Below are positions 51,360-57,767 of a stretch of 64,000 nucleotides of DNA, one piece after another. The DNA is from Isoetes taiwanensis. Its lineage: Eukaryota > Streptophyta > Lycopodiopsida > Isoetales > Isoetaceae. The DNA is taken from contig JAJEKV010000010.1 in assembly GCA_021234155.1 (NCBI GenBank), forward strand, positions 9,774,406 to 9,838,405, in the 5' to 3' direction. The position numbers and the translations under genes are program-made. Below the pieces are notes generated by a model. The model made no database searches. It worked only from the letters and a program-made list of their open reading frames with translations, and was not told where the DNA came from. The stretch's first letter is position 1. Each line of letters opens with the position of its first letter.

Positions 51360-51735
51360 CACTACAAGAGAATGACAGTTACGCGTCAGAACAATCGTCA
51401 GGCTTTTTTTAAATATTATGCTTGACGATTTTTCTGACGATAAAGCTGACGTTAAACAACCTGACGCTTTGTCTGACGAATATTCGTCAGAAATTACGTC
51501 AGTTTATTCGTCAAGTTTTATCGTCAGATGATACGTCAGGTATATCGTCAGAATATGCGTCACACATTGTGCGTCAGACGATGCGTCAGTTTTTGCGTCA
51601 TTTTTAGCGTCAGAACTGTTCGTCAAGAATATCGTCAGATATAGCGTCAGGTGTTGCGTCAGATATAGCGTCAGGTGTTGCGTCAGAAATAGCGTCAGGT
51701 GTTGCGTCAGAGAATTCGTCAGGAAAGTCATTCTA
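51360..51735 (+). repeat. Left terminal and subterminal repeats of the gene-carrying CACTA
   Basis: The 44-bp inverted end is followed to about 51,725 by over 25 copies of CGTCAG in short varied contexts (ATATCGTCAG, AGCGTCAGGTGTTGCGTCAG and similar). In En/Spm-type elements such motifs are where the element-encoded DNA-binding protein attaches (family knowledge). Confidence 0.9.
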
Positions 51736-53200
51736 AAGGCACTAATACTATTTTACTCATAACTTTTAATCCAAGAGTCTGTTTCAGATGAAATTTGGTG
51801 TTTTAGAAAGCTGTCTTCTTGATCTATCTAATGATATGTTATTTGACCAAGCTTGATTAAGTTCCTGAGGGGAAAGCCTATAAATTTTCATCCATAGCTA
51901 GAGTATTCTAATAAATCATCTTCCATGTAGGTAGGAATGCTATCTTCAAGTTTTTCATATTACATGTCATTAGCATTGGTCCATTGTCTCAGTGCCTCAG
52001 TCACCAAGCATCCAGTGCACCATACTTATGATTTCCTTGCAAAAATGGAGCCGGATGCATGGATAACGAGCTACCTCTGTGTGCCATATTTACTGTAACC
52101 CTTGCAGCATTTACAATAACAGACTATCTATTCAGCTTAGCTCCAGATATGTTATTGCCATATTTATTCTTTGAAAATAGACATGCAGTGCTCCATAACA
52201 GAATGCCATGCAAGGGCTCTAGACATGCATAATGCATGGGCATGCAAGTGAAGATGAACCGCTGAAGTTGATCGCCATAGCACAGAGATTTTCGTAACAA
52301 TCTGAAGCTTACCGCCCTATGGCATCGACGAAAAATTGATAAGACGTGGCCGGTTCAATTTCGGTCTGAGAGAGACAGATGTGGGATGTCTGAATCCCTT
52401 TCACGGCTCTAGGTTATGACATGCTGAATTCCTACTTTTATGATACCTTTTGCCCAGTGGATACAGACTGCCACATGTGTGCCTCAGGGGCCATCACTTA
52501 AGCTATAATGTTCATGCTCGGGAATAATCTTCGCACATGTGGTTAGGTTTCCACAATGGTCTTCACTTTTATATCTTAAGCCATTTTCCTTTGGATATTA
52601 AACCATCCTTGCCCTAATGGTCATAAAGGAAATTATAAGTGCCAAAGGGCCTTGGGAGCTAGGCATCAATCCCTAATAATATATTTGTAATTGAGAGATT
52701 ATAACACTTATTTTGTATTAAGGCGTTGTGGACTTAAACAAAAATTGGAAAAAAAAAAGCCCGATACCTAGGGTAAAAAAAATCATCCTTTCTTCTTGTT
52801 ATTTGCCGCCAACACTGAGGAGAAAGGGGAGTGCGCCTAATCTTCGGATCATTTTCGTGATAAGAGCAGATGTGAAATCCTGTGTCAACAGGTTTGTAAT
52901 TTATTTAGAATTTGCTAACAATTTACGGCAATGCATGATGTGCTTCGGATTCCTTGATCATGTCGTGGATCATCTGATTGATGCATTGATGCAGGGAAGA
53001 GGACGAGAGAGAGCTACGCCGCTTTGTAGTAACAGAAGACAGAGACGGTTGAGACTTTCTTGTTTGGTTGGATAAGCAAGAGGTCATACAACTTGCTGGT
53101 TTGCAAGAACAGCTAAGATGTTTCATTCTTTAGGCTTCTCTGTACATTAAAATGCCTTCTTTTTAGTATAATTTTGGAGCATCCTTTGGAGCATCCTTCT
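51736..53200. other. CACTA interior without recognised gene
   Basis: No transposase or host family was recognised. The longest frame (52,728-53,075, plus) and its minus-strand counterpart (53,126-52,923) have no visible domain. They may be further captured sequence. Confidence 0.4.
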
Positions 53201-53206
53201 TTTTTA

Positions 53207-53341
53207 GGATAATTTTGGAACATCTCGATAAACCAATGATGGACGTTTTTCAGCCAAACCTGGAATCTTTAGAGACAGGAAGTCCCCATGAACAATACTC
53301 ATCTGAACATTTTGCTGATCATAAGCTCGGATGTCTGCCTG
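53207..53341 (-). pseudogene. Captured exon resembling SDE3/MOV10-type RNA helicase
   Basis: After a TTTGCAG acceptor near 53,341, the frame reads [14 protein letters not shown] and then [19 protein letters not shown] for about 45 codons before a TAA. The PGLAEKRPS motif preceded by DIR-YD is characteristic of the region before the helicase core in SDE3-like proteins, which act in plant RNA silencing (family knowledge). Only this one exon is present, and it lies opposite in strand to the Pumilio segment. Confidence 0.55.
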
Positions 53342-53344
53342 CAA

Positions 53345-54576: not shown

Positions 54577-56757
54577 ATAACTTTCTGCATATTGTTTCTC
54601 GCCTCCGCGGCGTTCCTTGCAAGGTTACAAACACGTTGTAAATGTAACTTACTGTCCAGCCATAGAAGGGACTGGTCCGAAACGGCTGAAGCCAAGGAGG
54701 CAGTGCAACATGAAGCTAGTAGCAAAAATGTTGCAGTTTACCATGATCTACTAGAAGGTCTAGTATCTCTACATAACTATTTGCAAATAAACTTATCCAT
54801 GCAAAGGGCAGCTGAAGATGCAGGAACGGCTGCTGTTTTGGCCGATCCTTCTGTATTACAGGGCTACATGGGTGGATCTCGTGCGGATAGTTTTGATATG
54901 CATAAAGGGCATCTTGCTGCTGCTATGAGTTACACTGCTGATCAGCGGTCACAGTTTGCTAGAAGTGGTGCAGTGGGGGTGCCAATAGCAAACCGAGCTG
55001 TTGCAGGATCCCCAGGATATTATGGTAGCCCCCCTGGACTAGGCATGATGATGCCTTATCCAAACTCTCCTGTGGGTAGTCCCATATTACCTGGTTCTCC
55101 AGTAAGCAATTCTGGCTTTTCATTACGGCGTGATGATCGTGGTTCACGTTTGCTCTGTATGCCAGGGAGGACGGGTTCTTTGGCTTGGCAGACACAAAGG
55201 GGCAGTGAAACAAATAACGAATTAAGGGGATCTGTATTGCTGGAAGAGTTTAAGACAAGTAAAAGCCGGCGCTTTGAACTCTCTGACATTTCTGGACATG
55301 TTGTTGAATTTAGGTATGTCCTTCATAGCTATTAGGTTTGAAAGGGGCTGGATGATACTGTAAAGATAACCATGTCCTCCTTATTCTATCTATTTCACTG
55401 CTGATCAACATGGAAGTCGGTTTATCCAACAAAAATTGGAGACAGCAACTGCAGAAGAGAAATCTATGGTTTTCCAGGAAGTACTTCCACAAGCATTTAC
55501 GCTCATGACTGATGTTTTTGGCAACTACGTCATCCAGAAGGTTATTGGCGGATCTCTTTGCCATTTAGTAGGGAGCAGATGCACATTACTAGGTGTAGTT
55601 TTATTGATATGACTTTTCCTTTTGTTTTATGGTAGTTCTTTGAGCATGGAAATTCGCAACAACGAAGGGAGCTTGCAACCCAGTTGGTTGGCCGCATGCT
55701 TGTTTTGAGCTTACAAATGTATGGTTGCCGTGTAATACAGAAGGTAATGTGTCACGTAATGTATATTTCAGAGTTGGTTAATAATCTCATTATTTACAAC
55801 ACTGCATAATGCGTCTGTTTTTATAAAAACTTGATTCGTCTATCAGATTGCTTTGCTAGAGCTTATTTATCTGAGATCTTATCTGCCTGTAGGCATTAGA
55901 AGTAGTTGATGTCGATCAGCAAACGCAATTGGTTTCGGAGCTTGATGGACATATTATGAGATGTGTAAGAGACCAGAATGGGAACCATGTCATTCAGAAA
56001 TGCATTGAATGTGTGCCTCCAGACAGGATTCAGTTTATAATATCTGCGTTCTATGGCCAAGTTGTTAGCCTTTCCACCCATCCATATGGCTGCCGAGTGA
56101 TCCAGGTATGTGACAATTTAGTCTATTTCTTTCTATCCAAGGACACAGTCTCATATTTTCTGGTTCAGAGAGTCCTGGAGCATTGTACAGATGAACAAAA
56201 GCAGTCTGGGATAATGGAGGAGATTTTGCAAGCTAAATGTTCTCTTGCTCAAGACCAATATGGAAATTATGTTATCCAGGTTGGAGTAGTTTTATCCTTT
56301 GTTGCATTATTGGTAATGTGTTCAGTCTTACAGTTTCTTGCTCATTGCCAATATTTTACAGCATGTGTTAGAACATGGCAAACCTTATGAAAGAAGTGAA
56401 ATACTTACCAAGCTTGCTGGACAAATTGTACAAATGAGCCAGCATAAGTTTGCATCAAATGTTGTAGAGAAATGCCTTGAGTTTGGAGGGCATACTGAGC
56501 GGCAAATCCTTATAAACGAAATGCTAGGCCACACGGAGGAGAATATGCCTTTACAGGTACAACTGTACTTTATCTTACCTCATTGCAGTTAACAGTGTGG
56601 CATAATGCTAATTCTTTTCATGCAGGCAATGATGAAGGATCAGTTTGCAAACTATGTGGTGCAGAAGGTTTTGGAGACTTGTGATGACCAACAGCGTGAG
56701 ATTCTGTTGGGTCGAATAAAAGTCCATCTTTTGATCAGCCAACCATTGCAGCAATAG
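54577..56757 (+). pseudogene. Captured Pumilio (PUF) RNA-binding protein segment
   Basis: Seven exons: open from 54,577 to 55,313, then 55,399-55,540, 55,636-55,743, 55,893-56,105, 56,169-56,279, 56,362-56,556, 56,626-56,757. All join in phase. Exon 1 covers the plant Pumilio linker (MPYPNSPVGSPILPGSP, SVLLEEFKTSKSRRFELSDI). The exons then give all eight repeats, with reading triads in SRFIQQ, NYVIQK, CRVIQK, NHVIQK, CRVIQ, NYVIQ, SNVVEK and NYVVQK, the set that reads UGUA-type sites in mRNA 3' UTRs (family knowledge). Both ends are incomplete. There is no convincing ATG or N-terminal half, and after KVHL the expected C-terminal cap ([12 protein letters not shown] in relatives) is replaced by about nine residues and a TAG. 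Intron 1 ends in AC instead of AG (55,397-55,398). The coding frame is otherwise intact, so the capture is recent or the segment is under constraint. Confidence 0.9.
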
Positions 56758-56759
56758 AA

Positions 56760-57360
56760 GCCATGGTCAACCACTAATTATAATAGGTACTCATACTATA
56801 AATAAATTGGATAGTTAGAGTCTTTTTACTTTAGAAAGAAAGACTTCTGACTAAGATCTTTAAATGTTTCAGAATGATCATTTTGCAGCCAGATAAAAAG
56901 CTTGGATTTTCAGGATGTACGTAGGCGTATATATGTGTTTCTTTGGGATAAGACCATGTCTTATATATTTGCTAAAAGTAATAACTGTCATGTCAGCTTG
57001 GAACTATAACGCTATAGCAGATTGTGTGGAAGGCAGTTGCTCTATCATTTACTTTGATTATGAGTATGGTTTCAATATGATGTTTAAAATATAGCATGGC
57101 ATTTGTTGACATCACATCTCGGATTATAAGGCTGAATGTACCATTATAAAATTAGTGCTGATAGTGGAAGTGTTCCACAAATGAGATTATAACATGTCAA
57201 GACTTCAAACCAGTCTTAATAGATTCTCTTCAGATATACATTCATGAAGGGGCTTAAGTATTCATGGGTATGAATATTACTCAAGAAATATTGTCTCCAG
57301 CACCGGTTTTAATAGCAAGACAAAAAAAATTTCTCAGATGGGCAATTTATTAAAGAAATG
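56760..57360. other. CACTA interior 3' of the Pumilio segment
   Basis: No coding sequence was recognised, and the missing Pumilio C-terminal cap is not found here. Confidence 0.5.
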
Positions 57361-57364
57361 ACTA

Positions 57365-57767
57365 AGTAAATGACGAAAACTCTGACGTTTTTGTTGACGA
57401 AAAACCTGACGAAATAACAAACAAAAACCCTGACGATTTTTCTGACACAAAAAGTGATGCAACTGCTGACAAAAATCCTGACGATTTTTCTGACACAAAA
57501 AGTGACGCAACTGTTGACGAAAATCCTGACGATTTTTCTGACGCATCCCTGATGATTTACCTGACGCTATATCGTCAGACAACCTACGATTTACCTGACG
57601 CTATATCGTCAGACAACCTGACGATTTACCTGACGTTTTGTCTGACGCACAATCGTCAGATAAAAATCGTCAGCCAAATCGTCACCCAGAGGTGTCTGTG
57701 CAGTTCTCTGTTTAATAAAGACTGCCTGACGATTATTCTGACGCCTAACATTCATTCTCTTGTAGTG
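57365..57767 (-). repeat. Right subterminal and terminal repeats of the gene-carrying CACTA
   Basis: CTGACG motifs repeat at close spacing (for example CCTGACGATTTTTCTGAC several times at 57,430-57,545), then the 44-bp inverted end at 57,724-57,767. The motif orientation mirrors the left side. Confidence 0.9.

Follow-up and report, generated by a model that had tools for sequence, protein, structure and literature searches.

A probable young, non-autonomous Pack-type CACTA element carrying pieces of a Pumilio gene and of a second host gene in Isoetes taiwanensis

We analyzed a 64,000-nucleotide stretch of the Isoetes taiwanensis genome (C908:9774406–9838405; hereafter the window), in which a preliminary description had placed a complete CACTA transposon with a captured Pumilio RNA-binding domain at positions 51360–57767. 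The search of the genome (1.66 Gb, 1110 contigs) strongly supported this assignment through an empty site, the same ends and cargo elsewhere, a separate donor gene and defined breakpoints. With high confidence, we regard 51360–57767 as a young, non-autonomous, two-gene Pack-type element of the CACTA (En/Spm) superfamily, with a cargo that is most likely unselected.

Both ends of the element start with CACTACAAGAGAA, as CACTA terminal inverted repeats (TIRs) do. The left TIR (51360–51411, plus strand) and the right TIR (57716–57767, minus strand) are 52 nucleotides long and 87% complementary, and an eye count gave 40 matches over the first 44 nucleotides, the figure given previously. ACA stands on each side of the element (51357–51359 and 57768–57770), in agreement with the proposed 3-bp target-site duplication (TSD). 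The motif CTGACG occurred 51 times in the window, compared with 9.1 expected and a maximum of 15 in shuffled sequences. Thirty-nine of the 51 sites fell within the two element ends in mirrored orientation, 18 of the 22 sites in the left subterminal array (51384–51722) being on the minus strand and 13 of the 17 in the right array (57382–57743) on the plus strand; the mirrored arrays described earlier were thus reproduced. On C556, a related empty site was found, where the match to the left flank stops at 631843 and that to the right flank begins at 631842. This site (C556:631842/631843) reads ...GATTCACA|TGGACAAG... with one ACA, and the joined flanks with a single ACA showed that 51360–57767 was a single insertion. 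Flank matching alone also pointed to C974:14207648/14207649, where the flanks likewise abut but are less similar (85% and 89%). The left neighbourhood of the element (49300–50638) is a repeat of high copy number, as 49300–51359 gave 1141 first-look candidates, 40 of which were scored; the element lies in or next to repeated DNA.

The Pumilio cargo is a segment of a group-I Pumilio gene on the plus strand (54799–56727), comprising the end of the NABP region and PUF repeats 1–8 together with introns. The search for a parental gene, which the preliminary description had proposed, located the donor on the minus strand of the same contig as the window, at C908:20.503–20.507 Mb (L012). The donor has a 234-codon open stretch starting with MATESPV and a 415-codon open stretch carrying the NABP match. 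When the genome was searched with NABP, all three candidates were scored, and they were the window, the donor gene and the copy of the element on C1061; in a protein search with 74 matches, other PUF genes were 31–46% alike, with short fragments of higher similarity in addition. The Pumilio piece starts at about 54799, after a CC belonging to neither donor, and the homology stops at 56727, after RIKVHL. In the donor, the sequence goes on directly into the C-terminal cap, and the N-terminal part also lies outside the captured stretch. In the element, 56727 is followed by LISQPLQQ and a stop, which are common to the other copies and absent in the donor. The PUF domain of the element therefore has no C-terminal cap, as had been proposed, since donor homology ends ahead of it. 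In the assembly, the donor has open ends and garbled PUF exons and might be annotated as a pseudogene. Fragments of this Pumilio gene, about 450–500 bp long and running from exon 4 onward with introns, were also observed at L006, L007 and L008 (85–87% alike), and further places with pieces of this size lie on C1018, C1034 and C907. L006–L008 have a common stop (YGC*VI) and common neighbouring sequence, and pieces of this type seem to form a separate repeat family of greater age that contains Pumilio sequence.

A second captured piece, which was absent from the preliminary description, occupies 54163–54796 on the plus strand and showed 95.3% identity with C1035:7772947–7773600. DUF676 (PF05057) exons lie just upstream in the C1035 locus (E values of 8.6e-23 and 2.1e-7), and we take the piece to come from a DUF676-type gene on the basis of these neighbouring exons and of known DUF676 proteins. 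The cargo is thus of the Pack type, its host matches being the Pumilio donor at C908:20.50 Mb and the C1035 locus. The window copy is without 13 nucleotides that are present in the second donor and in the C941 copy of the element (14 in the C1061 copy), and both of these copies carry the second piece too. The codons of the second piece, ETAEAKEAVQHEASSKN...YLQINL, are joined to MQRAAEDAG of the Pumilio piece with no change of frame.

The conceptual protein is encoded on the plus strand by seven exons with a frame open throughout. Exon 1 (54592–55313) leads from codons of the second piece into the NABP/PUF exon, with the first in-frame ATG at 54799. It is followed by exon 2 (55399–55540; PUF repeats 1–2), exon 3 (55636–55743), exon 4 (55893–56105), exon 5 (56169–56279), exon 6 (56362–56556) and exon 7 (56626–56757), which contains the end of the Pumilio homology and the eight element-specific codons before the stop. 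All six introns have GT donors and five have AG acceptors; intron 1 is GT–AC, with AC at 55397–55398. The earlier claim of a spliceable seven-exon PUF segment accordingly stood for the open frame, the six donors and five acceptors, and failed at the acceptor of intron 1, so that the splice sites are not canonical throughout. The next AG lies 18 nucleotides downstream of the AC and is in frame, and its use would delete six residues of repeat 1 (ADQHGS). The acceptor spot is altered in other copies also, and the AC could therefore be a base-call error. The conceptual protein gave eight PF00806 matches (E value of 8.5e-90) and aligned with Pumilio homolog 2 (PDB ID: 3gvo; E value of 9.3e-122). 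At the triad residues of the PUF repeats, the alignment read SR-Q, NY-Q, CR-Q, NH-Q, CR-Q, NY-Q, SN-E and NY-Q. All eight are identical to those of Pumilio homolog 2, which bears out the claim that the eight RNA-reading triads are in frame. The window PUF domain thus has the eight repeats and the triads of Pumilio homolog 2 and differs from it in having no C-terminal cap and in bearing codons of the second piece on its N-terminal side. Under established PUF rules, binding to UGUANAUA is predicted.

To find relatives, the left 381 bp of the element were used as the query, and 40 of 374 first-look candidates were scored. The match started at TIR base 1 in 39 of these 40 places, the window included, and the 13 nucleotides CACTACAAGAGAA stood at the start of all 30 fetched TIR loci, including the window's own. 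The 5′ neighbours of the fetched loci differed, except that they were common within L015/L016 and within L027/L028/L030. This search for the element ends, also proposed in the preliminary description, thus found the same ends elsewhere, and in two cases the cargo lay between them: C941:17684113–17699324 and C1061:8807949–8823174 are 15.2-kb copies with the same TIRs, the same cargo and parts of the interior. Their 5′ flanks were 91% identical over the nearest 1.06 kb of the 1.5 kb compared and their 3′ flanks 93% identical over 2.4 kb. The matching flanks ruled out two separate insertions, and the two copies were therefore counted as one insertion, either alleles or duplicates. The scan of the large relatives for TNP2 (PF02992) covered the C941 copy and detected two TNP2 pieces (E values of 5.3e-29 and 3.2e-7) and a DUF4218 piece (E value of 2.6e-17), all on the strand opposite to the cargo. 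The transposase expected of the CACTA class was thus found in the family through the C941 relative. In the window copy, the family interior (51740–53901) is without about 6.35 kb of C941 at 52720/52721, the site of the TNP2 pieces, and without a second C941 stretch of about 2.7 kb further along. Ten of the 24 listed open reading frames of the window were scanned, and none had a TNP2 match; together with the missing TNP2 stretch, this indicated an element with no transposase of its own. Conversely, 218 bp at 53639–53856 are kept in the window copy and absent from C941 and C1061, which argues that the copies are siblings and not parent and child.

A third copy, on C1064 (L011, C1064:3735000–3744900), matched only element bases 4213–6138, which include part of the PUF piece and the right subterminal part. 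GC-rich stretches flank it on both sides, with values of up to 0.70 and 0.63. No long inverted ends were found around it; the match is partial and the only inverted pairs are two short ones of 25–27 nucleotides, so that a complete element at L011 is unsupported. In the window itself, a further CACTACAAGAGG start at 60377 is followed by six CTGACG sites (60414–60833), and 60377–60833 may be one end of another CACTA element.

Many frameshifts were present in the PUF exons of the donor and in the other element copies. We examined changes at CAG and CTG in the copies on C1061 (L009), C941 (L010) and C1064 (L011), of which the first two are oppositely placed on their contigs and the third is placed as L010. 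CAG of the window was unchanged at only 7 of 51, 5 of 49 and 8 of 29 sites in L009, L010 and L011, respectively, and CTG at 4 of 42, 7 of 42 and 7 of 15. For comparison, CAA was unchanged at 41 of 48, 41 of 48 and 27 of 28 sites, and ATG at 63 of 67, 58 of 65 and 38 of 41. Read in contig orientation, CAG had become CGG in 12 of 38, 16 of 44 and 4 of 21 cases; CTG had become TTG or ACG in 15 of 44 (L009) and 13 of 35 (L010), and TTG in 2 of 8 (L011). Read in element orientation, the outcomes differed between L009 and L010 (Fisher p of 1.2e-8 for CAG and 2.9e-5 for CTG); the outcome classes of this test were picked after the spectrum had been seen, cover 45 of 88 altered CAG and 33 of 73 altered CTG, and omit sites altered only by an inserted gap. 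The CG count rose from 38 to 75 in L009 and 79 in L010. Natural deamination of methylated CHG was rejected as the main cause, because TAG was rare among the altered CAG sites (2 in L009 and 1 in L010). The deamination-compatible changes, CAA from CAG (9 in L009, 1 in L010) and TTG from CTG (0 and 7), followed contig orientation. We know of no biological process that tracks contig orientation, and the changes were therefore taken as a consensus artefact. Modified CHG cytosines in long (nanopore) reads are probably behind it; a limited literature search found no paper on modified bases in nanopore reads as the cause of such errors. Between C941 and C1061, 263 of 1607 columns near CAG/CTG differed, compared with 225 of 5322 elsewhere, which indicates that errors or changes are not confined to CAG/CTG. 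The window at 50001–58000 was not depleted of CAG/CTG (observed/expected of 1.10–1.77). The ratio was 0.32–0.57 in 4 of 32 window bins (1–2000, 36001–40000 and 62001–64000) and 0.66–1.77 in the other 28. CAG/CTG were sparse in the TNP2 region, L056 (1–11 per 500 bases).

The donor showed a different pattern, with no specificity for CAG/CTG (1.12-fold). Its differences from the window lie inside the shared stretch. Of 20 bins of 100 bases, 17 held 8–44 differences each; the remaining three held 0–2, and two of these make up the final 128 bp of homology. Such differences would be expected of a repeat-like stretch left unpolished; a real pseudogene in the donor PUF stretch is formally still an alternative. 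The donor and the other copies thus appear to be broken largely, although not wholly, through assembly error, and the window's own frame may have been affected by polishing.

When donor columns were kept only if the nearest gap was more than 15 columns away, 9 of 345 differed from the window; looser gap limits gave 19 of 513 (10 columns) and 36 of 817 (6 columns), and the last 128 bp contained one difference. Since some errors are still included, we took 2.6% as an upper bound of the donor divergence. With a rate of about 1e-8 changes per site per year, this value dates the capture to about 1.3 million years ago or less, and an open 1-kb frame would be unsurprising at such an age. Given the low divergence from the donor (at most about 3% where comparable), the open frame does not speak for selection. 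At least 4 nucleotides from CAG/CTG, the exonic synonymous/nonsynonymous differences from the window were 4/15 in L009, 1/21 in L010 and 2/2 in L011, with 12, 16 and 3 exonic indel sites, respectively; many of the differences were clustered and some of the indels would break the frame. Real changes were inseparable from errors, and the ratio of nonsynonymous to synonymous rates between the window and the other copies was therefore dropped. Away from CAG/CTG, C941 and C1061 have a few changes in common relative to the window, including 3-bp in-frame deletions at 55299–55301 and 56634–56636, besides further substitutions and indels.

These results suggest that an ancestor in a TNP2-bearing family captured 1.93 kb of the group-I Pumilio gene as well as part of a DUF676-type gene, and that its descendants are the element at the window site, the one at the other site (C941/C1061) and the partial copy at C1064. 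The window copy is without the transposase region and was inserted with duplication of ACA, as the empty site shows. Movement, if any, would depend on transposase acting in trans on the TIRs and CTGACG arrays, as expected for this superfamily. The PUF frame would still be open since little time has passed. Most likely, the PUF piece is cargo that may be transcribed or yield small RNA, and not a selected regulator. Several points weigh against this account. Intact triads and an open frame are equally predicted if the PUF piece is functional, and the window PUF sequence may contain unseen errors, given how poorly this stretch is called elsewhere. The C941/C1061 insertion has an imperfect TSD (ATA/ATG), and the captured DUF676-type exon itself matched no Pfam family. 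In addition, we infer the order of events behind the window copy.

That the element is a mobile, potentially expressed regulator, as first suggested, is no more than a possibility. In its specific form, the element would encode a working capless PUF protein with its first in-frame ATG at 54799; this protein would bind UGUANAUA-type sites and either compete with the donor Pumilio or misdirect it. The seven-exon open frame, the eight repeats with intact triads and the two in-frame deletions common to C941 and C1061 are compatible with such a protein, but the AC acceptor of intron 1 and the lost cap argue against it, and low divergence would leave the frame open anyway; we consider it very improbable. 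Slightly less probable still is a CACTA lineage that would spread a two-gene chimaera of esterase-type codons and PUF, expressed as a capless, mobile competitor of the host Pumilio at UGUANAUA sites. A role chiefly as a small-RNA source against the donor Pumilio is also improbable, albeit less so: the cargo is not confined to a single site, and one report describes a maize precedent in Helitrons, Pack-MULEs and Sirevirus elements (PMC13317346), but no inverted copy of the cargo lay inside the element among the 25 listed of 65 inverted pairs.

More weight, although on balance we doubt it, should be given to the idea that the window frame is partly an assembly product, with reads of the Pumilio gene and of all copies placed here, so that this copy was corrected and the other copies and the matching donor exons were left uncorrected. 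The dense differences of the donor, which yet reads openly outside the element homology, and the altered CAG/CTG with contig-orientation spectra in the other copies would follow from such placement. On the other hand, the window-specific, transposon-specific 3′ end, the AC acceptor and the 13-nucleotide loss persist, and the window differs from C941, C1061 and C1064 near 56799; moreover, the last 128 bp of the donor are clean and its errors are not CAG/CTG-specific. That a host Pumilio gene just happens to lie between CACTA-like ends that arose by chance is almost inconceivable: the empty site on C556 refutes it, and the same cargo within the same ends at another site and the separate donor gene also speak against it. 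We prefer a young Pack-type CACTA element with cargo that is most likely unselected.

Gene-carrying CACTA elements are already well known from soybean, from morning glory and as Pack-CACTA. Soybean Tgm-Express1 is a 5.7-kb CACTA element with five gene pieces and chimeric transcripts detected by reverse transcription PCR (PMC1947982). The window element resembles it in size, in having several host-gene pieces with exons and introns, and in its chimeric open frames; it differs in that two pieces were recognised, of which one is an RNA-binding domain with eight repeats, and in being known from sequence alone. The Tpn1 family of morning glory is non-autonomous, with captured host genes inside and 3-bp TSDs (PMC5105172). 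Conserved ends, subterminal repeats and captured interiors are shared with the window element, a likeness of description and not of aligned ends, whereas the C941 relative bears TNP2 pieces and cargo together. In Pack-CACTA elements, CACTACAA ends enclose captured coding DNA that often stems from two or more loci (PMC8903248), and the window element shares these ends and the capture from multiple loci. Tandem insertion followed by aberrant excision is proposed as the capture route (PMC13317346). A limited literature search found no capture of Pumilio by a transposon.

Comparisons of broken copies with an intact copy in this assembly are partly comparisons of a consensus artefact, which is a warning for such comparisons. 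If CHG methylation in the reads is the cause, the loss of CAG/CTG would amount to a methylation map obtained by accident and would point to an unmethylated window copy. With the empty site, the two donors and a sibling insertion all found in one genome, the element is a clean case of a transposon that fused two host-gene pieces in one frame and bears a nearly whole RNA-binding domain.

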